This document shows positions 1 to 8,480 of a stretch of 64,000 bases of DNA, piece by piece. This stretch comes from Pseudanabaena sp. PCC 6802 (GTDB lineage: Bacteria > Cyanobacteriota > Cyanobacteriia > Pseudanabaenales > Pseudanabaenaceae). Made by a program: the position numbers and the translations under genes. Position 1 is the stretch's first letter, and every line of letters begins with the position of its first letter. The notes beneath the pieces are model-generated. The model searched no databases, was not told the DNA's origin, and worked only from the letters and a program-made list of their open reading frames with translations. The stretch lies in NCBI RefSeq assembly GCF_000332175.1, contig NZ_KB235914.1, positions 3,592,868-3,656,867 on the forward strand, in the 5' to 3' direction.

Positions 1-2
1 GT

Positions 3-404
3 GTTGATGGTAAACCCTACCTGGGTAGGCGTATCGATGGCAAGAAAATCCGCGTCTATGTCTTTACTCAGTTTTGGAGTAATGAAAAAAGTGAGGTTCC
101 AGAGGTTCCACAGGTTCCAGTGAGCCAGAATGCAGACACAGTAAAGCATACAGACAGTGACGAGCTGGAACCTAGCTCAGGTTCCAGCAGGTTCCAGAGG
201 TTCCAGAAAGACATTTTTGATAATGCCGTGGAACCTCTGGAACCTGACCAAAAATCGACAGGTTCCAGCGAGGTTCCAGTTGAGAACCTTGACAACAAAG
301 GGTTTGCTGGTAGTGGAACCCCTGGAACCTGTGGAACCCACAAAAAACAGCAAAGTTTAAAAAACACTACCTCGGAGGCGATCGAAGATGCCGATGAGTT
401 CTAG
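3..404 (+). CDS. C-terminal part of an accessory protein, cut by the window edge
   Basis: The frame is open from the left edge to a stop at 402-404. The visible start reads VDGKPYLGRRIDGKKIRVYVF, which could be the end of a folded domain. After that comes a low-complexity tail (SEVPEVPQVPV, ELEPSSGSSRFQRFQK, EPLEP, GTPGTCGTH) written by GGTTCC/GGAACC repeats in the DNA. I do not recognise the family. Similar repeat-rich tails occur in plasmid or phage primase-like proteins, but that is only an analogy. The end overlaps the next gene by 17 nt, so the two are probably co-expressed. Confidence 0.5.
   Translation, partial: VDGKPYLGRRIDGKKIRVYVFTQFWSNEKSEVPEVPQVPVSQNADTVKHTDSDELEPSSGSSRFQRFQKDIFDNAVEPLEPDQKSTGSSEVPVENLDNKGFAGSGTPGTCGTHKKQQSLKNTTSEAIEDADEF
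95..340. repeat. GGTTCCA/TGGAACC short-repeat cluster inside a gene end
   Basis: About 17 copies of GGTTCC or its complement GGAACC lie within 250 bp, many at 9-nt spacing (for example 95-120, 190-206, 231-244, 315-336). They occur in both orientations and in more than one reading frame, so the peptide they encode changes from VPEVP to RFQRF to EPLEP to GTPGT. The DNA word is therefore conserved rather than the peptide. Confidence 0.8.
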
Positions 405-738
405 CCTTTTGGTGGGGGCGATCGCTTTCGGTAAGTCTGGTATTGGTTGCCCTGTCACTCAGGTCGAGGGCGATCGCGTGACAGTGCTTTGTTCCGACGG
501 CAAGTTAAAGCGTGTCCCCCTTAATGCGATCGCTCGCTGGGAGATGCCAGGACAAAAGTTTAAGCCCTGCGATCGCGTAACAATCGCCGTAGGCAACCCC
601 GAACGGTTTCGGCATCACGGCAAAGTCGGCACAATCCGGCGCTTTGACCCCAAGGACTCGACTTTCGAGGTGCAGTTAGACGATGGCGGTCATGGCTGGT
701 GGCGATCGGAGTTTTTGCGGGTGGTGAAGCATGAGTAG
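388..738 (+). CDS. Hypothetical small protein with tandem KOW/SH3-like beta segments
   Basis: The protein has 116 aa with no signal peptide or membrane span. It contains two similar stretches, GCPVTQVEGDRVTVLCSDGK and KVGTIRRFDPKDSTFEVQL, each like a small beta-barrel (KOW/SH3-type) segment around a 'GD-x-V' or 'G-x-V-G' turn. That is only a visual resemblance. Two starts are possible (388 and 394), and both overlap the upstream gene end. The stop overlaps the start of the J-domain gene (ATG at 731), so the three genes form a tight accessory operon. HIP1 words are frequent, so the gene has long resided in cyanobacterial DNA. Function unknown. Confidence 0.65.
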   Translation: MPMSSSLLVGAIAFGKSGIGCPVTQVEGDRVTVLCSDGKLKRVPLNAIARWEMPGQKFKPCDRVTIAVGNPERFRHHGKVGTIRRFDPKDSTFEVQLDDGGHGWWRSEFLRVVKHE

Positions 739-1255
739 TCGGATCTCATTCTGGATGCCAATTTATAAGGACACCGCAAGAGTCAGGGGCTACAAGCGTG
801 GCTGGGTTTGGCATCAACTGCAAAAGCAATTCAGCGATTTCACGCTGAACGAATTGCAGTATATCGGCCAAGAGCTTGGCTATAAGCCATCGTGGGCAGA
901 AATCCAATTTGTCCAACAGTCCGAGGTGCAACAAAAGCAACAGCGCCAACATCCCCCCTTGGACTGGCGGCAAAAGCACAGGCAGCAACAGCGCAAATCT
1001 AACCAGACGTTTAAGCAACAGTTTGCCGACCATTGGCGCGCCCCTACCCCCCAAAGACCATTGCCTCATTGGGGTAGATCTGAATACCTGCGCCCTTACC
1101 TGGATTTGCTTGGACTGGATATGCCGTTTACCGAGCAACAACTGAAGGCGGCTTATCGGTCTCGGGCGAAATCAGCCCATCCCGATGGTGGCGGCAGCCA
1201 TGCCAGTTTCCTGAGGTTGAAAGATGCCTATGACAAGCTCCGAGGGGAATTATGA
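731..1255 (+). CDS. DnaJ-domain (J-domain) protein, accessory type
   Basis: The protein has 174 aa. The C-terminal ~50 residues form a J domain: FTEQQLKAAYRSRAKSAHPD followed by GGGSHASFLRLKDAYDKL, with the essential HPD tripeptide intact. J domains stimulate the ATPase of Hsp70/DnaK. The N-terminal 90 residues are basic and glutamine-rich and resemble nothing I know. Here the J domain is C-terminal and there is no Gly/Phe region or zinc finger, so this is not the housekeeping DnaJ. In phage and plasmid replication modules such small J proteins sometimes recruit host DnaK; that role is inference. The start overlaps the upstream stop. Confidence 0.8.
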   Translation: MSSRISFWMPIYKDTARVRGYKRGWVWHQLQKQFSDFTLNELQYIGQELGYKPSWAEIQFVQQSEVQQKQQRQHPPLDWRQKHRQQQRKSNQTFKQQFADHWRAPTPQRPLPHWGRSEYLRPYLDLLGLDMPFTEQQLKAAYRSRAKSAHPDGGGSHASFLRLKDAYDKLRGEL

Positions 1256-1337
1256 GTAGCGCGATCGCGCGATCGCGTAAACATATCCCCTCCAATATGT
1301 CGATTTTTTGGCGAAAAATAAACATGCGATTGACACA

Positions 1338-1535
1338 TCAATCGCAACTATCTTTATCGTCCTCTGCGATCGCTTTCCGCAAAACTTCTCTTACCCACTC
1401 ATGACCTTTAGCTCTCACATACTCATCAATATCGACTGGCAGGCGAAGGCTAAATACTTTGCTTGCTAGGGGCACATCTCGGATGCTTTCAAACTTGCCG
1501 ATACTGCCGATCCGCGCACCTTTGATAATCCTCAT
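1338..1535 (-). CDS. Small ribbon-helix-helix-like DNA-binding protein
   Basis: The protein has 65 aa and starts at an ATG with a good Shine-Dalgarno sequence (AGGAAG). The centre, KVFSLRLPVDIDEYVRAKG followed by WVREVLRKAI, has the pattern of a CopG/Arc-type ribbon-helix-helix: a short beta strand, then two helices. It resembles the protein at 4851-5060. Such proteins are usually small repressors or antitoxins. It is transcribed away from a promoter at 1635-1663 that contains a short palindrome, a plausible operator for it. No toxin partner is adjacent. Confidence 0.6.
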   Translation of the reverse strand: MRIIKGARIGSIGKFESIRDVPLASKVFSLRLPVDIDEYVRAKGHEWVREVLRKAIAEDDKDSCD

Positions 1536-1634
1536 TGCCTATCTTCCTATTAGAACCCGACAATCCTACCCTAGCACGAGTCAACACGTACTCAAATTTG
1601 GTCGCAATCTAGTCACCAAAAATTGCTAAAAGTA

Positions 1635-1663
1635 TTGCTATAAACGTGTCTACACGCTATAAT
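1635..1663 (+). promoter_or_regulatory. Sigma70-type promoter with a palindrome between -35 and -10
   Basis: TTGCTA (1635-1640) and TATAAT (1658-1663) are separated by exactly 17 nt. The spacer contains CGTGTCTACACG, a 5+5 palindrome with a 2-nt centre, placed where a repressor would block RNA polymerase. It lies about 90 nt upstream of the 1752-2697 gene cluster. The repressor is not known; the ribbon-helix-helix protein encoded divergently at 1338-1535 is the nearest candidate. Confidence 0.65.
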
Positions 1664-1751
1664 TATATCCATAAAGCAAGACGATCGCCCCTCCCGGAAA
1701 GAAGTAAGCGATCGCCTTGCAAGTAAAAACTACTTAAAAGGATTGTAGATT

Positions 1752-1985
1752 ATGTTGAGTCTGCCAGCAAACGATCGCGCCGTTGCGAGCCTGAGACTTG
1801 TCAATCATTGTCCGCTGCCATGGATGGACTATACCGACGATTTTGATATCCCTGAAGTGCCCTACAGGGTGGTTGTCCGGGATATCCCCGAATATGGCTA
1901 CGCTCAAGCAGTGAGTCTGGAAGAACATTATCGCGTTTTGTTTCGCCTGGGCTACGCAAACGATGAGGAGGAAGACAATGGCTAA
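1752..1985 (+). CDS. Hypothetical protein, 77 aa, acidic
   Basis: A soluble, acidic protein (ending NDEEEDNG) with no recognisable motif. It is the first gene behind the promoter at 1635-1663. AAGGA lies 10 nt upstream of the ATG. Its last codons contain the ribosome-binding site GAGGAGG and the start of the next gene (8-nt overlap), so translation is probably coupled. Confidence 0.55.
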   Translation: MLSLPANDRAVASLRLVNHCPLPWMDYTDDFDIPEVPYRVVVRDIPEYGYAQAVSLEEHYRVLFRLGYANDEEEDNG

Positions 1986-2430
1986 GGTAGTTACTCCCGA
2001 CATCGCCACGGTAGAAGTCATTGGCAGAGCCAAACAATCCAATTACTCGGACGACGTTTACCATCCCTGCCTATTCACACTGGCAAGCGGCGGTCAAATA
2101 TGGAAGTCGCTAAACCAGTCAGAGGCAAGTCAGCTAAGCAAAGGCGATCGCGTCCAATTGGTACCCGCTGGCACGGACAGCAAAGGTAATACCAAGCACA
2201 ACATCGTCAGGATGGAGAACCCACCGAATGCTGTGACAACCGAAGCGGTTGGGTTAAGTACGCAGGAGAAGCAGGCGATCGCCACATATATCCAGCAGCA
2301 AGCAAAGGTACTGCGATATTGCTATGAGTCAGCCGCGGGCGAATTGGGAAGCTTGGAATTATCAGAAGAGAGTATCAGAGCATCCGCCCATACTCTGTAT
2401 CTGGCAGCTAGCAAGCATTTCAAGTTGTAA
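1978..2430 (+). CDS. Hypothetical protein, possible OB/beta-barrel N-terminus
   Basis: The protein has 150 aa from the ATG at 1978, chosen because GAGGAGG sits just upstream; an upstream alternative at 1963 lies inside the ribosome-binding site. The first ~75 residues look like a small all-beta fold (TVEVIGRAKQSNYSDD, then GGQIWKSLNQSEASQLSKGD and RVQLVPAG). The rest is helical (TQEKQAIATYIQQQAKVLRY). This layout would suit a single-strand nucleic-acid-binding protein, but that is a guess. It belongs to the accessory operon 1752-2697. Confidence 0.55.
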   Translation: MAKVVTPDIATVEVIGRAKQSNYSDDVYHPCLFTLASGGQIWKSLNQSEASQLSKGDRVQLVPAGTDSKGNTKHNIVRMENPPNAVTTEAVGLSTQEKQAIATYIQQQAKVLRYCYESAAGELGSLELSEESIRASAHTLYLAASKHFKL

Positions 2431-2460
2431 ATTTTATCGGCAAACATAAGGAGAAAACTC

Positions 2461-2697
2461 ATGATCGAATCAACACTCAAATCTATCGTCACGGACTTGA
2501 GCGATATTGGGGGCAATATCGGCATTATTGCCTCGGCTCTGCGTCGCCTGGATGGGGATTTTGCAGAGAGATATCCCGATGACGATCGCGAATTGGAAAA
2601 ATTGCTGCTTGCCATCATCGCGCTAGAAGGCATCGAAGAACTCATCCACAATTCGACAATGGCGCTTGCGAAGCTGCCGGAGCAAACTGATAAGTAA
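2461..2697 (+). CDS. Hypothetical helical protein, 78 aa
   Basis: A strong ribosome-binding site (AAGGAG) lies 8 nt before the ATG. The protein is predicted all-helical (SALRRLDGDFAERYP, RELEKLLLAIIALEGIEEL), with no cysteines and no membrane span. It is the third gene of the accessory cluster, 30 nt after the previous one. Family not recognised. Confidence 0.5.
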   Translation: MIESTLKSIVTDLSDIGGNIGIIASALRRLDGDFAERYPDDDRELEKLLLAIIALEGIEELIHNSTMALAKLPEQTDK

Positions 2698-3553
2698 CCG
2701 ACAGGTAGAAGTCGAGCACCTGGCGTGGCTGACTGAATCAGGTTAGCCACCGCCAGTCCCTCTTAACGCGAACCGACGCGGCGCACGAGCCGAAGGCAGC
2801 GCCGCAAAACCCCAGCTGCAACGAGAGAGGTTAATATGGCGAAGCTGCGACCCTTAGGGACTTGACGGGTAGCTCCGCCTCCCCTACACTCACGCATTCC
2901 ACACGCACACACCATTGCGGAATGGAGCACACGATAGCCGTTAAAGCGCACCACAAACGAGTGCATTTTAGAAAGAATTAGAACAACAACTATAGACGCT
3001 GAGACGGAACGAAGTGGAGGGGAAGCAAATAAACAAATGTGAGCGCACGTAGCACCCACAAGGTCGAGCGAAATTGCGGAGTGCGCGAACTCCAAACAGT
3101 GCGGAGCGATAGTGAAGCTTAATAAATAGAAGTGACTTCTATGACGCGCGAGGACTGGTGCGCTAGGCTACTCGTTCCTGCGGAATGGAGCGCTAACAAA
3201 GCCCACGGCTAACGCACGTAGGAGTAGGCCGACAAGGGCACAATCAAAGCTGAAGATGCACTTTCAATCTGACGCGAAATATTGCAATGACAGCTTTGTC
3301 AATATTTCTTTAACTTTGCTAATTGAATATGGAATGCATGGAAAGCCCCACTCGGGGGCGGCGTGAGCGGGGGTGGGGAGCGATCTGGCTGCTTTGCGAT
3401 CGCAATTTTTGCGACTGACAAACTATTTACTGACGGCAAGCAGCCCACTAAGCACCGCAGGGACGAGGATGCGGTATAAATTGCGAAGCATCATCTAGCG
3501 CGGGAATCTCAGCCGATCTAATTAATGCATGCGCCTTATAAAAAAGGATCTCC
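2698..3553. other. Long gene-free stretch of unusual composition, possible structured RNA
   Basis: About 850 nt hold no convincing protein gene in any frame. GCGATCGC is absent until about 3398, unlike neighbouring DNA. The stretch carries repeated purine-rich words (TGCGGAATGGAGC at about 2917 and 3179, TGCGGAG at about 3074 and 3102) and several small hairpins: ATAGAAGT-G-ACTTCTAT at 3126-3142, GGAGTGCGCGAACTCC near 3076, and CCCCACTCGGGG near 3348. Options are a non-coding RNA gene, a regulatory region or a decayed insertion. I cannot choose between them by eye. Confidence 0.35.
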
Positions 3554-3964
3554 TCACTCAGGAGCGATCGCCTGCTTCCAATTTTCAAGAGACATTTGTT
3601 CTGGCACGTAAATTTGTACTTGTGGCGCGATTTTGTGCGCATCGTGGTTTCTTTCTCGCCAACCTAATTGGGTTTTGCAGAGGAAAATAATCATCGTCGT
3701 GTCGCCTTCCATAGCGGTATCGAATGCCAGTTGCGCTAGTTTGACTTCCGCTATGGCTTTGCCTGATTCCCATGCTCCACGAATCCTCTCATCTTTTTGC
3801 AGGTAATTATCCAAGGTGCGATCGCTGATTCCTATTACTAGCGCGATTTGACTTAGAGTGAATCCCAGGCTTGCCAGCCGCTGCAATTCCGATAGACGGA
3901 TTTCTCTTGGCTTGCTTGGCAGATCGTTAATTATTTTTTTGGTTGCGCTACCAGCTTTTGGCAT
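3554..3964 (-). CDS. Phage-type HTH protein, terminase-small-subunit-like
   Basis: The protein has 136 aa. A helix-turn-helix is clear at residues ~30-55 (RLASLGFTLSQIALVIGISD, then RTLDNYLQ). It is followed by a segment typical of phage small-terminase or homeodomain-like proteins: a GKAIAE helix, LAQLAFDTAMEGDTTMIIF, and LCKTQLGWRE. In phages this family recognises DNA ends for packaging, but solitary chromosomal copies are common and may be regulators. No large terminase, portal or capsid gene is visible nearby. The gene supports a mobile-element origin for this end of the window. Confidence 0.7.
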   Translation of the reverse strand: MPKAGSATKKIINDLPSKPREIRLSELQRLASLGFTLSQIALVIGISDRTLDNYLQKDERIRGAWESGKAIAEVKLAQLAFDTAMEGDTTMIIFLCKTQLGWRERNHDAHKIAPQVQIYVPEQMSLENWKQAIAPE

Positions 3965-4158
3965 ATTAGAAAAGTTTTAGCCCGTCACCTATGTGAATGA
4001 TTTGAGTATAGATTTAAAGCCCTGTCGGAGTGCGATCGCTTTTTAATGCACTTGGTTCTCAGCTATGGGCAACCTCTTTCCTGGCAGTTTCCAAAAGGAA
4101 TGTAATCGGGAGTCATTTACATGGATCTTATTAAAAGGGGCTGTAACATTGCATTTTT

Positions 4159-4563
4159 TCAAGGCAGGCGTTCGCAGGCGAGTCCATCTTTGTCCCTATC
4201 GAGTAAGAAAGGATCGTCAGGGAAAGCGTCTAAAACTTTTTGAGCCTCCCTCTGTGTAGCAAAGTCCTTACAATCGCAGTTTCCTTGTGACACGCAAATG
4301 GAAACTGTGGGGCTGGCTGTATTGACAGCTTTTTTGTTGTTGACTACACTCCCTACCCCTAAAACGATTGCAAAACTAATGCCCACAAATGCGATGAGAA
4401 ATAGTGGGTTATCCTCTATGCCTGACTTCCTGTTTTCATCTTGAACAATGGGTAGCTTTGGTTTGTTACGTGCGATCGCGCGATCCATCAAACGATATTT
4501 CCAATGGTAAACATTTGACTGAATGGAGAATAAAGATCCGATAGATTTAAAGAAATTTTTCAC
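4159..4563 (-). CDS. Membrane-anchored Excalibur calcium-binding domain protein
   Basis: The protein has 134 aa. One membrane segment ([20 protein letters not shown]) lies at residues ~52-72. The C-terminus is an Excalibur domain: [20 protein letters not shown], then a [10 protein letters not shown] loop, which is the DxDxDGxxCE calcium site with paired cysteines. The family is extracellular and often accompanies nucleases or lysins, but no enzyme domain is present. The start shown is GTG at 4563; a later ATG (residue 26) is possible. Confidence 0.75.
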
Positions 4564-4797
4564 TCTCAGCGTAATCCTTGCAAAGCTAATGAGTCCAGAT
4601 TACCCAGCTATGCACCTAAATTATCCATTGAGCTATGCAAAAGTCTGGGTATCAGAATCTCCAGCCTGTTTACTAGCTCAAAGCGCAACGATCGCACTCC
4701 TGAGCAGCAACTGATTGCGGAAGCCCTGGAGAAAGGACAGCATTGGCAAGTATGCGATCGCTCGGGGAGATCGCTACTCTGGGAGCGGGTTGGTTAA
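4534..4797 (+). pseudogene. Start-less coding-like fragment
   Basis: This open frame has no ATG/GTG/TTG start but looks protein-like towards its end (TPEQQLIAEALEKGQHWQVC, then DRSGRSLLWERVG). It may be the end of a gene whose beginning was lost, or noise. It stops 53 nt before the next gene. Confidence 0.25.
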
Positions 4798-4850
4798 ATT
4801 AATTGCAATTTGTTATATTGTTGTTAACAGCAATATTTAAGTTAGGAGAT

Positions 4851-5060
4851 ATGCCAAATCCACACCCAAAACCTGAAAACTTGAAGCCTCTCCCCCGTTG
4901 TGATGACAGCACCGAACCATTAGCCAGTGCAATTCTAGCGGTCAGAGTCTCGACCGAAATAGATGCTGTGGTGCGATCGCAACCTAACAAAGCCGCGTGG
5001 CTGCGGCGGGTCATTACCGAAGCGGCACAACGCGAACTAATGGGAGGTAATGAGTTATGA
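4851..5060 (+). CDS. Small ribbon-helix-helix-like protein
   Basis: The protein has 69 aa from the ATG at 4851 (AGGAG just upstream; a TTG at 4803 would add a hydrophobic leader but looks less likely). The core LAVRVSTEIDAVVRSQPNK followed by AAWLRRVITEAAQREL matches the strand-helix-helix pattern of CopG-like proteins and resembles the 1338-1535 protein. Its stop overlaps the start of the coiled-coil gene (ATGA), so they form a two-gene unit. Confidence 0.6.
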   Translation: MPNPHPKPENLKPLPRCDDSTEPLASAILAVRVSTEIDAVVRSQPNKAAWLRRVITEAAQRELMGGNEL

Positions 5061-5425
5061 CCTTTGAAGAGTTGCAGGCAATAGTTGAATCTACGGCTCG
5101 CACGGTGCAAGGTTTAGCTGAGACTCAGGGAGAACTTCGACGCGATTTAGCCGAGCAACGTTTAGAGTTCAATCGAGAAATGGCTGAATACGAACGGCTA
5201 AACCGACAACGTCATGACGATTTAAGTGCAGAGTTGCAAGCAATATCCCGTGATGTTTCGCGGCTGGTTGACACTCAGCACGAGGCCGCGACAGAGCGAC
5301 ACGAACTCAGACAAGCCACCTTGGGTATTGCTAACCTGCTGGCATCCCTAGATGAGGATCGCCCCACTATCTTTAGAAAGCTGAATGCGATCGAGAACAA
5401 AGTCGATAGGATATTAGAGCGTTAG
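5057..5425 (+). CDS. Coiled-coil protein, 122 aa, common cyanobacterial type
   Basis: Almost the whole sequence is heptad-like helix (ELRRDLAEQRLEFNREMAEY, ELQAISRDVSRLVDTQHEAA). Cyanobacteria have many such short coiled-coil proteins of unknown role, often beside small RHH genes. Translation is coupled to the upstream gene through an ATGA overlap. A terminator-like hairpin follows at 5581-5602. Confidence 0.65.
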   Translation: MTFEELQAIVESTARTVQGLAETQGELRRDLAEQRLEFNREMAEYERLNRQRHDDLSAELQAISRDVSRLVDTQHEAATERHELRQATLGIANLLASLDEDRPTIFRKLNAIENKVDRILER

Positions 5426-5580
5426 CCTTTAGCTATCCACAGGGAAAGAGGCAGGTGCATTAGTTAGTTTTAGAGTAAAATACCTCACAGCATTACTCAT
5501 TTGTGGGGACAATTTGGGGTACGCTCAAATCGTCTAGATGCTAAACCCATTGCCTAGCTAGAAATGCAAGAGTTTTCTCT

Positions 5581-5602
5581 ATGGGCGGGCGACCCATTTT
5601 TT
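5581..5602 (+). terminator. Rho-independent terminator-like hairpin
   Basis: ATGGG and CCCAT flank a 7-nt loop, followed by TTTTTT. It lies about 155 nt after the coiled-coil gene on the plus strand. The stem is short, so confidence is moderate. Confidence 0.45.
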
Positions 5603-5652
5603 CGGAGCCGCGATCGGCAAAGTTACGAAAATAATCAATACTGCTCGATCGA

Positions 5653-6426
5653 TCAGCCAAACTTACCCGATACATACTCCTGGGTTTGTTGTTTGGTAGC
5701 ATTCTCGAAAATTACTTGTGTAGTATCAAATTCTACTAGCTCTCCGAGATACATAAATGCGGTGAAGTCAGAAATGCGAGAGGCTTGCTGCATGTTATGA
5801 GTGACGATCAAGATGGTGACTTTTTCCTTCAGGCGGCTCACTAATGACTCAATACTGGCAGTAGCGATCGGGTCTAGTGCAGAGGTTGGTTCGTCAAACA
5901 GTAATATCTCCGGCTCGGTAGCTAATGCCCTGGCAATACAGAGGCGTTGCTGTTGACCGCCGGATAAATTTAGGGCTGAGTCTTTCAGCCTATCTTTTAC
6001 TTCGTCCCACAGAGCCGCATCTCTCAGGGCCATTTCTACTTTGTCATCGATCGCTCTCCGCCTTCTCTGCCCCCTAACTCGCAGTCCATAGGCAACATTC
6101 TCATAGATGGATTTTGGGAAAGGATTGGGTTTCTGAAATACCATCCCAATTCGCATTCTGACCTCAATTGGATCGATGTGCTTGTTGAGAATATTTTGGG
6201 ATTCTAATAGAATTTCTCCCTCATAGCGATTGCCAGCATACAGATCGTGCATGCGGTTGAAGCATCGCAGCAGAGTGGTTTTACCGCACCCCGACGGACC
6301 GATCAAGGCTGTCACTGCATTCTCTGCTACATTGAGGTTGATATTTTTGAGGGCGTGGACGTCACCATAATAGAAGTTGAAGTTCTCGACTTGCGCTTTA
6401 GCTCTTATTTCTTGGGAGATCTGCAT
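5653..6426 (-). CDS. pstB: PstB, ATP-binding subunit of the phosphate ABC transporter
   Basis: PstB hydrolyses ATP to drive phosphate import through PstC/PstA. Visible motifs are Walker [10 protein letters not shown], the signature LSGGQQQR and Walker [14 protein letters not shown], with the PstB-type [14 protein letters not shown] start and [19 protein letters not shown]. The start given is the ATG at 6426 (258 aa, usual length). A TTG at 6465 would add 13 residues; neither has a strong ribosome-binding site. It is last in the pstS-pstC-pstA-pstB operon, 58 nt after pstA (19 nt if the TTG start is used). Confidence 0.95.
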
Positions 6427-6484
6427 AAAATTCTGGGAGTAGTATTTCAAGTAATTATTTTCCAACTGCTAGACCTAATTTCTA

Positions 6485-7465
6485 TTACCACTTGATGCGC
6501 TGGCGGAAATAATAGCGTAAATAGATAGCTAATCCATTCATCAAGAGAGTAATTCCAACCAGAACTATCCCAGCGGCGGCGGCGTTAAGCTGGAATTCCG
6601 GTTCGGGACGCGATACCCAATTAAACATTTGAATTGGCATCACTGTAAAGGGTGCAAATAGCCATTTAAACGAGTACCAGGGTTGTTCGTCAGAAAATGG
6701 CAAAAAAGCAATAAATGTGAGCGCTCCGATTGTAATTAGCGGTGCGGTTTCGCCGATCGCTCGCGACAATCCCACAATAATTCCGGTCAGGATACCTCCT
6801 GCCGACGCTGGTAGTAGATGATCCCAAATCATTTGCCATTTGCTGGCACCCATAGCATAGGCTGCCTCGCGCAGGCTGCTCGGCACCGCTTTAATCGCCT
6901 CGCGCGTAGTCACGATGACCACGGGCAGAATCAACAGCGAGAGAGTCATGCCCGCCGTGATTACGCTTTCCCCCAGTTTAAGTTGCTCGACAAATACACC
7001 CAATGCCAGCAATCCATAAACAATTGATGGCACGCCAGCCAGATTTGAGATATTAATTTCAATTAAAGCTGACAGCCAGTTCTTGCGGGCATATTCTTCT
7101 AGATAGATGCCCGAGGCAACACCTAAGGGCACAGTTGCTACAACTGTCACTAACATGACCAGCAAGCTGCCTACCCACGCTGACAGGATACCAGCATCTT
7201 CCGGCACTGGGTCGGCAAAGGAGGTAAGGAATTTCCAATTCAAGCGCGGCGTACCAGTCAGAGCCAGGTTAGTAATTAGTGCTAGCAGCACGAATAAAAT
7301 AACTAGCAATGCCAAAAGCCCGAAGATAATAAATATATAATCCCAAAGCTTGCGACGTTGAATCCCAGTCCGAAGCGATCGCAGGTTTCTGGAAGAATCT
7401 CCTGTTGAGGTGTCATCCAACGAATCATCTGGTTCCAAGCCCTCTGTTATCAACCAATCTGCCAT
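6485..7465 (-). CDS. pstA: PstA, phosphate ABC transporter permease
   Basis: The protein has 326 aa. After a ~35-residue polar N-terminus there are about six membrane helices and the permease loop REAAYAMGASKWQMIWDHLL, followed by GIIVGLSRAIGETAPLI, the PstA version of the EAA motif that contacts PstB. It forms the membrane channel with PstC. The start lies 4 nt after the pstC stop, which points to translational coupling. Confidence 0.95.
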   Translation of the reverse strand: MADWLITEGLEPDDSLDDTSTGDSSRNLRSLRTGIQRRKLWDYIFIIFGLLALLVILFVLLALITNLALTGTPRLNWKFLTSFADPVPEDAGILSAWVGSLLVMLVTVVATVPLGVASGIYLEEYARKNWLSALIEINISNLAGVPSIVYGLLALGVFVEQLKLGESVITAGMTLSLLILPVVIVTTREAIKAVPSSLREAAYAMGASKWQMIWDHLLPASAGGILTGIIVGLSRAIGETAPLITIGALTFIAFLPFSDEQPWYSFKWLFAPFTVMPIQMFNWVSRPEPEFQLNAAAAGIVLVGITLLMNGLAIYLRYYFRQRIKW

Positions 7466-7469
7466 GTAA

Positions 7470-8480
7470 CTAGTAGACCTCCCGAAAACGCTTGCTCAAA
7501 AAATATCCAATGATATTGAGTATAAGAGTCATCGACACCAGAGATAATCCTGCGATAAAGATAGTGTCATACTCTATGGAACCATGTGGGATATCTCCCA
7601 AACTCACCTGCACGATATAAGCCGATACCGTTGCTGCCGATTCTAGAGGATTCCACGTATAGTTTGGTTGCAGTCCGGCAGCGATCGCCACAATCATCGT
7701 CTCTCCAATCGCTCGCGAGATCCCGAGGATATAAGCTGCAATTACACCAGAGAAAGACGCTGGCAAAACCACCCTTAGCGCTGTTTGCAAGCGCGTAGCG
7801 CCAGTCGCGTAGGAACCTTCCCGCATTTGCAAAGGAACGGATCGCATGGCATCTTCACTAATCGAGCTTATCAAAGGAATAATCGCAATTCCGATCGCTA
7901 GTCCCGCACTGAGCATGTTAAATCCTGGGAGCAGAAAGTATTCAAACTCTCCCAGATCGGGCATGAAATATTTCTGCACCGCCAGCAGAATTGCTTGTAA
8001 GGCAGGCGATATAGCAGTTAGCGCAAAATAACCAAATACGACAGAGGGAATACCAGCTAGTAATTCTAGAATTGGCTTGACAATCTCGCGGGTGCGGCTG
8101 GAGGCAAATTCACTTAAATATATAGAAATAATTGTGCCAATCGGAATGGCGAATGCGATCGCTACGCCGGTGGTGACAAGCGTTCCAGTTAGAAGTGGTA
8201 ATATACCAAACTTGCCACCTTCAAACAGAGGGGACCATTCACGCTCGTTTAAAAACTCCCCTAGGAAAAAACTAATTGGTGTTGTATTACGCAGTTCTGC
8301 TACTTTTAAGAAGAAATTATATGATTCTACAATTAGAATCTCCATGATTCCAAATGTTGTCAGAACCGATGAGAGAGCAGCCAATAACAGAATAATCTCT
8401 ATTCCTCGCTCAATTAGCACGCGCTTCCATTTGCGCTGACTAGGCATAAGGGCAAGCCCTGCCACAGAAGATTTTGCCAT
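7470..8480 (-). CDS. pstC: PstC, phosphate ABC transporter permease
   Basis: The protein has 336 aa and about six membrane helices. The coupling loop REGSYATGATRLQTALRVVL and the segment ISRAIGETMIVAIAAG identify PstC; the N-terminal helix (IEIILLLAALSSVLTTFGIM) is also typical. It pairs with PstA in the inner membrane. It lies 131 nt downstream of pstS, with no terminator evident between. Confidence 0.95.
   Translation of the reverse strand: MAKSSVAGLALMPSQRKWKRVLIERGIEIILLLAALSSVLTTFGIMEILIVESYNFFLKVAELRNTTPISFFLGEFLNEREWSPLFEGGKFGILPLLTGTLVTTGVAIAFAIPIGTIISIYLSEFASSRTREIVKPILELLAGIPSVVFGYFALTAISPALQAILLAVQKYFMPDLGEFEYFLLPGFNMLSAGLAIGIAIIPLISSISEDAMRSVPLQMREGSYATGATRLQTALRVVLPASFSGVIAAYILGISRAIGETMIVAIAAGLQPNYTWNPLESAATVSAYIVQVSLGDIPHGSIEYDTIFIAGLSLVSMTLILNIIGYFLSKRFREVY

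Follow-up and report, generated by a model that had tools for sequence, protein, structure and literature searches.

Frpo/ssi elements of F-type plasmids work as folded single-stranded DNA: RNA polymerase uses the fold, and the RNA produced stays paired and primes second-strand synthesis (PMC7690428; PMC11541004). The sso elements of rolling-circle plasmids work similarly (PMC7690428; PMC11541004), and an sso has been reported in the integrative element ICEBs1 (PMC4595007). Cyanobacteria are not mentioned in the principal study of single-strand promoters, and the literature searched on cyanobacterial leading regions or satellites contained nothing on point.

The present study concerns a stretch of 64,000 nucleotides from the cyanobacterium Pseudanabaena sp. 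PCC 6802 (hereafter, the window). A preliminary description drew attention to positions 2698-3400 as a gene-free candidate for a large structured RNA. Judged from sequence comparison, this block is a non-coding, non-random, conserved, and strand-specific folded element. We tentatively suggest that it may well be a single-stranded-DNA promoter or single-strand origin functioning like Frpo, ssi, and sso.

Results

Coding content, repeated words, and extent of the conserved unit

As initially described, the block has no credible ORF. The longest open stretch (110 aa, - strand, 2763-3095) shifts frame relative to the homologous copy in L002, a paralogue in the same genome, and differences between the two are spread evenly over its three codon positions (21/80, 29/80, and 29/79). 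A protein on the - strand was rejected because of these frame shifts and the lack of codon-position bias. Similar-looking - strand ORFs of 134-196 aa are present in the paralogues, and blastp of the two translations gave E = 1.5e-6, a value that the similarity of the DNA leads one to expect.

The reported absence of HIP1 sites holds for 2698-3395, but not for the end of the block, where one GCGATCGC spans 3396-3403. Of the 102 intervals that separate HIP1 sites in the window, 31 reach or exceed 700 bp. The absence in the block is thus ordinary, and HIP1 avoidance was rejected as a signal. The word TGCGGAATGGAGC was correctly reported as occurring twice (Table 1). Both copies are exact, flank a conserved hairpin, and recur in the paralogues. 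The HIP1 absence and the repeated words are real, yet uninformative on their own.

Several hairpins were also recovered. The RNA fold of the 703 nt gave z = -2.8 on the + strand and -1.8 on the - strand. The sequence of the leader hairpin (Table 1) is not conserved in the paralogues. The conserved unit is narrower than 2698-3400, extending from about 2860 to 3194, and conservation between the window and the paralogues is limited to approximately 280 nt (core 2915-3194, + strand), with none to the right of 3194. The proposal of a large structured RNA stands in that the element is structured, non-coding, and conserved, with compensatory changes in relatives, and adjoins a gene of the phage-packaging type; the proposed size class of 600-900 nt does not.

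Table 1. Features of the window copy and of its surroundings
Feature	Position	Strand	Basis or remark
Leader hairpin, strong, 15 pairs, directly after the upstream ORF	2720..2756	+	RNA fold of the block
Promoter-like TTGACG-17-TACACT	2862..2890	+	Motif scan
C/A-rich stretch poor in G, corresponding to the polypyrimidine tract in relatives	2885..2913	+	Sequence
5' box TGCGGAATGGAGC	2916..2928	+	Recurs as GCGGAGTGGAGCAC in L043
P1 5' arm, CG + TAGCC	2932..2939	+	Partners 3166-3170 and 3173-3174
Unpaired 5-nt bulge GTTAA	2940..2944	+	Faces the A of the -10-like hexamer
P2 5' arm AGCGCACCA	2945..2953	+	Partner 3156-3164
P3 5' arm CGAGTGC	2958..2964	+	Partner 3146-3152; tandem GA/AG in the window
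Apical domain	2965..3145	+	Comparison with paralogues and relatives
P3 3' arm GCGCGAG	3146..3152	+	
P2 3' arm TGGTGCGCT	3156..3164	+	Partner 2945-2953
-10-like hexamer TAGGCT, base of P2	3164..3169	+	Same place occupied in relatives
P1 3' arm GGCTA	3166..3170	+	Compensatory relative to paralogues
3' box TGCGGAATGGAGC	3179..3191	+	GCGAAACGGAGCGC in L043
Small-terminase-like gene, neighbour in the same island	3554..3964	-	phrog_309, E = 4e-14
attR CGGGCGACCCAT, island right end, copy of the tRNA-Lys 3' end	5586..5597	+	Matches L018 7489-7500

Copies and relatives

A search of the genome itself revealed three paralogues, two that are 80% identical to the window copy across 280 bp and one that is partial. 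These paralogues (L002, L003, and L004) are located elsewhere in the same contig, on three related plasmid-like stretches of approximately 14 kb that encode a replication-initiator-like gene, a cytosine methyltransferase, DUF932, a SWIM-like protein, and an endolysin-like peptidase. A small SLOG/DprA-like gene is present directly upstream of the paralogue copies on the same strand. The 280-bp unit is all that the window and these stretches have in common. We noted that L015, L016, and L017 are related plasmid-like stretches of approximately 14 kb in one chromosome contig, two of which are interrupted by the same IS; in L017, another partial copy follows in inverted orientation. A Mu-like gene set (L019, G000:C5:2080000-2099900; transposase, portal, and F-like head protein, with translations judged by eye) adjoins the L015 plasmid-like element.

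DNA similarity searches of 58 relatives, of 72,556 plasmid records (with the L002 copy), and of phages gave no match, and those of 386 genomes of the phylum gave nothing convincing, only matches of 22-35 nt with E of about 0.001-0.01. Exact-pattern searches of viral and genome contigs were likewise negative. Homologues of the SLOG protein were found on Picosynechococcus plasmids (pAQ5 and relatives) and on Nostoc, Fischerella, Moorena, and Calothrix plasmids, with 28 loci in the genome collection. In many of these loci, a gene-free gap is located 3' of the SLOG gene on the same strand (approximately 0.6-1.4 kb in Picosynechococcus, Moorena, and Nostoc); a few, such as L053 (311 bp in the annotated plasmid copy), lack it.

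Built on the window core plus two paralogues, a covariance model recognized, besides its own members, the third paralogue, L004, with 89 bits. Weak matches were obtained for L043 (19.6 bits, E 0.0009), L061 (14.4 bits), L039 (13.6 bits), L044 (9.9 bits), and L045 (8.8 bits) and, in a second run, for L038 (18.6 bits) and L036 (17.5 bits). All of these weak matches are on the + strand inside gene-free gaps after the SLOG gene, on plasmids or contigs of Petrachloros, Picosynechococcus (pAQ5-type), and Calothrix. Conserved copies with compensatory changes, which the preliminary description had proposed to search for, were found by nucleotide search (paralogues in the genome itself) and by the covariance model (plasmid gaps). 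In pAQ5 of Picosynechococcus sp. PCC 7002, a laboratory strain that can be transformed, the copy is located at about 1330-1990 on the - strand. Another weak match, in a Pseudanabaena-family genome (G025, L081), was discarded as spurious because it sits on a terminator and the end of a coding gene. The same pAQ5 carries a 171-bp hypothetical gene (L040 4280-4450) that is listed in PLSDB as 'ACT-82 beta-lactamase'; this label is surely spurious because 171 bp is far too short for a beta-lactamase.

Covariation of the stem and variability of the apical domain

In an alignment of nine copies, which was fitted to the covariance model and is thus biased towards the structure, P1-P3 are paired in 90.6% of cells, 11 of 22 pairs are changed on both sides, and all nine P2 pairs are formed in every copy (100%), four of them with double changes. 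None of 500 shuffles reached any of five measures of P1-P3 pairing, and sliding the pairing partners destroys it. The P2 changes can be read directly from the raw sequences (e.g., AGCGCACCA/TGGTGCGCT in the window, AGCGCGGCA/TGCTGTGCT in L002, and AGCACGGCA/TGCTGTGCT in L004). P1 is also compensatory, with TAGCC/GGCTA in the window and CAGCC/GGCTG in the paralogues, and P3 pairs perfectly in L002/L003 and Picosynechococcus. RNAalifold of the core against column shuffles gave z values of -3.4 on the + strand and -2.3 on the - strand. Since G-T pairs, including those in P2 of L002-L004, are confined to the + strand, we regard this as the folding strand.

The sequence above P2 is about 200 nt long in the window copy as well as in L002 and L003, and is a different one in L004 and Picosynechococcus. 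The apical segment 3031-3149 is about 90% identical to L002/L003; in L004, another sequence takes its place in the centre of the unit, the outer parts of which are conserved. The apical loop is only 4-19 nt long in L041, L045, L052, and L057. As DNA, such compact versions form strong hairpins (z -4 to -13) and the window core is of unremarkable stability (z +0.9 to +1.1), folding energy being unable to discriminate between an RNA and a DNA fold.

The -10-like element and the polypyrimidine tract

TAnnnT is the usual cyanobacterial -10, and TRTGn ahead of it constitutes the bacterial extended -10 form. The 3' arm of P2 always runs into TAnnnT, resembling an extended -10 promoter element. The hexamer TAGGCT, shared by the window, L002-L004, L043, and L052, is replaced in other relatives by TGTGCTAGGCT, TGTGCTAAAAT, TGTGCTATAGT, or TATAAT (TAAAAT in Picosynechococcus, L041, and L044; TATAGT in L045; TATACT in L054; TATAAT in L057 and L061). 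TGTGC precedes it in L002, L004, L044, L045, and L052, all of which have TRTGCTAnnnT at the P2 3' arm against a background of 0.05 per 900 nt. The window has CGC instead of TGC and, thus, lacks the TG. The DNA folds of L041, L044, L045, and L057 leave all or some of the -10 bases unpaired between P1 and P2.

Polypyrimidine tracts with a length of at least 33 nt (e.g., TACCTTTACCTCTCCTCTCTCTTTTCTTCTTCTTC) occurred in nine sampled loci versus 0.5% of control stretches, and in these loci they invariably lie 5' to the hairpin. In Picosynechococcus and Pseudanabaena-type copies, they are replaced by a G-poor stretch, and the window copy has no true tract. The exact polypyrimidine pattern gave no match in the 386 genomes of the phylum; two matches in viral contigs, which were not accompanied by a hairpin or gene-free gap, were rejected as chance. 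An automatic search for a stem, TAnnnT, and an outer stem separated the strands poorly because the compact hairpins are nearly palindromic. The scan that detected the upstream promoter-like site found one site versus 0.7 expected in shuffles, a result that is weak alone. Its counterparts are TTGACA-17-TAC in L045, L054, and L061, and TTGACA with a shorter spacer in L002/L003.

The host island and gene neighbourhoods

The window copy is located in an island of approximately 11 kb between attL and attR, extending from L018 7427 to window position 5597, with its left end at tRNA-Lys(ttt) (L018 7427-7501). It encodes a P4-type integrase, AlpA, a DUF927 primase-helicase, a DnaJ-like protein, and a small-terminase-like gene; the latter is the neighbour initially described as a phage-like HTH gene, an assignment that was borne out and sharpened. 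The integrase, AlpA, primase, small terminase, tRNA att site, and a size within 10-15 kb were all found, and the predicted gene content gives the island a P4-like or PICI-like phage-satellite layout in a cyanobacterium.

In the plasmids, genes for ArdA, SSB, and DUF1071 (ssDNA-annealing type) adjoin the element, and in pAQ5, pANSO36C, and a Fischerella plasmid, these and replication genes are templated by the folded strand, an arrangement also seen in leading regions. In contrast, the genes on the 5' side in the window lie on the other strand. Neither a relaxase nor an oriT was identified on the element-carrying plasmids or the island; the carrier plasmids are all typed 'non-mobilizable', with no transfer function annotated.

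Two other observations concern the region 3' of the SLOG gene. In Fischerella sp. NIES-4106 plasmid3 and a Fischerella sp. PCC 9431 contig (L042 3767-5785 and L063 3684-5929), the SLOG gene and its structured block are immediately followed by a 23S rRNA gene, or a truncated version of one, in antisense orientation. Moreover, Nostocales loci (L042, L060-L063, L065, and L067) carry a second conserved stretch, in which a hairpin and TATAAT are followed by AAGAGTGGAAGAAACGGAACGACGTRAACCCGGAGGCAATGAAC and a structured sequence of approximately 300 nt. This stretch, also present on small Scytonema plasmids, is possibly a separate RNA.

Discussion

Going beyond the observed conservation, lack of coding, covariation, -10-like element, tract, and gene contexts, we infer a folded molecule made of DNA, its use by RNA polymerase, and priming of DNA synthesis by the resulting RNA. 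In the island or related plasmids, the + strand would become single-stranded after transfer or during replication, and 2932-3174 would fold into P1, a bubble, and P2, with the variable apical domain on top. On its 3' arm, this fold would expose an extended -10 of TGnTAnnnT-like form in which the A at -11 is unpaired, and host RNA polymerase may start there without a separate -35. Transcription, which on folded ssDNA runs towards the 5' side, would first copy the 5' arm and next the G-poor tract. The RNA, predicted to be purine-rich in most relatives, would stay paired to its template and prime synthesis of the complementary strand. All-purine RNA from a polypyrimidine template forms very stable hybrids with DNA, and the tract would therefore yield a fitting primer. 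In the plasmid relatives, the same RNA could continue towards the ardA/ssb/rep genes, for which the folded strand is the template; in the window, a priming role only is conceivable because the genes on the 5' side lie on the other strand.

The stem keeps pairing while its sequence and loop change, and an unpaired extended -10 occupies the 3' arm; the element therefore looks like a single-stranded-DNA promoter. The extended -10 at the stem base, the dispensable apical domain, and the polypyrimidine tract fit such a promoter better than an ornate RNA. Several results weaken this reading. The compact hairpins leave no double-stranded -35, unlike Frpo. No relaxase or oriT was identified, and the life cycle of a phage satellite has no obligatory single-stranded DNA stage. 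The window core is not unusually stable as DNA, and the window has neither the TG of the extended -10 nor a true polypyrimidine tract. The G-T pairs in P2 of L002-L004 suit RNA at least equally, and conservation of the 120-nt inner segment exceeds what a simple loop would call for.

The main rival explanation is a new structured-RNA family of plasmids and satellites (approximately 300 nt in the window). Transcribed from the promoter-like site at 2862-2890, it would combine an invariant outer stem (P1-P2-P3) with an apical domain that can be exchanged, and would serve as a scaffold, regulator, or copy-number RNA. We regard this as possible, but rather unlikely. Covariation including G-U pairs on the + strand only, the better alignment-fold z on that strand, the 90% identity of the apical segment between the window and L002, and the lack of an encoded protein are consistent with it, as are the exact 17-nt spacing of the upstream site, also found in L045, L054, and L061, and the conserved purine-rich stretch (AAGAGTGGAAGAAACGG...) after TATAAT in Nostocales loci, as expected for an RNA start. 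However, the apical domain is replaced in L004 and shrunk to a few nt in L041, L045, and L052, the conserved promoter-like TGnTAnnnT inside the fold would have no role, no Rfam family matches, and no convincing intrinsic terminator was found on the + strand. It is likewise somewhat doubtful that cyanobacterial plasmids (3' of the SLOG gene) and a phage-satellite-like island carry previously undescribed structured RNAs with exchangeable apical domains.

We consider it improbable that the extended -10 at 3164-3169 belongs to an ordinary double-stranded promoter, with the overlapping inverted repeat as a regulator site and a short RNA running rightward. TRTGnTAnnnT is the standard extended -10 form and the conserved 3' box directly follows it, but the half-sites are 4 to approximately 200 nt apart depending on the lineage and differ in sequence with pairing kept, which is unlike operator evolution. 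Furthermore, nothing is conserved to the right of 3194 between the window and the paralogues, and no rightward gene is present on that strand in the window or L002/L003. Another DNA site of plasmids and satellites (vegetative origin, partition, or packaging), the inverted repeats of which merely resemble a transcription signal, is very improbable. A position between replication genes and the small-terminase gene (window) or close to parA (pAQ5) would suit such a site; however, strand-specific orientation, the unpaired -10, and the polypyrimidine tract would have no role in it, and no iterons were found.

Should the element prove to be a promoter or priming site in single-stranded DNA, it would be, within the literature searched, the first described in cyanobacteria. 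It would indicate the strand and the side of entry for plasmids without an annotated transfer function, and would imply that the int-AlpA-primase island passes through a single-stranded stage. It would also provide a search rule for cyanobacterial establishment regions: a polypyrimidine tract, followed by a stem whose 3' arm has TGnTAnnnT at its base, beside a SLOG gene.

Comparison with known systems

The preliminary description speculatively likened the block to GOLLD and ROOL RNAs, with which it shares a large, gene-free structured stretch on phage-related or plasmid-like elements. This likeness did not extend to the families themselves: neither was detected by cmscan, whether run on positions 1-8000 with E values up to 5 or on the complete window with gathering scores, and no Rfam family matched the block even at E up to 5. 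The conserved unit is approximately 280 nt instead of 600-900 nt and has a promoter-like element inside the fold.

The element resembles Frpo/ssi in its long single-strand hairpin, the -10 in the 3' arm, and a gene-free stretch of approximately 300 bp. Predicted folds and covariation both point to a folding single strand with the -10 in its stem. Nearby antirestriction and SSB genes templated by the folded strand are a further likeness, which holds for the plasmids, but not for the window. A paired -35 is absent, since loops of 4-19 nt above 6-9 pairs leave no room for it in the compact relatives, and the L002 copy revealed no sequence similarity to known Frpo/ssi among the 72,556 plasmid records; the element is therefore not Frpo by definition. 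It also differs in its occurrence on cyanobacterial plasmids and an int-AlpA-primase island, its polypyrimidine tract on the 5' side, and its large, interchangeable apical domain.

With the sso of rolling-circle plasmids and ICEBs1, the element shares strand- and orientation-specific hairpins, second-strand priming by RNA polymerase (predicted here), and residence on an integrative element. The island itself resembles P4-like and PICI satellites in its tRNA insertion, P4-type integrase, AlpA, primase-helicase, small terminase, and size of approximately 11 kb, and differs from them in carrying a single-strand-type element common to plasmids.
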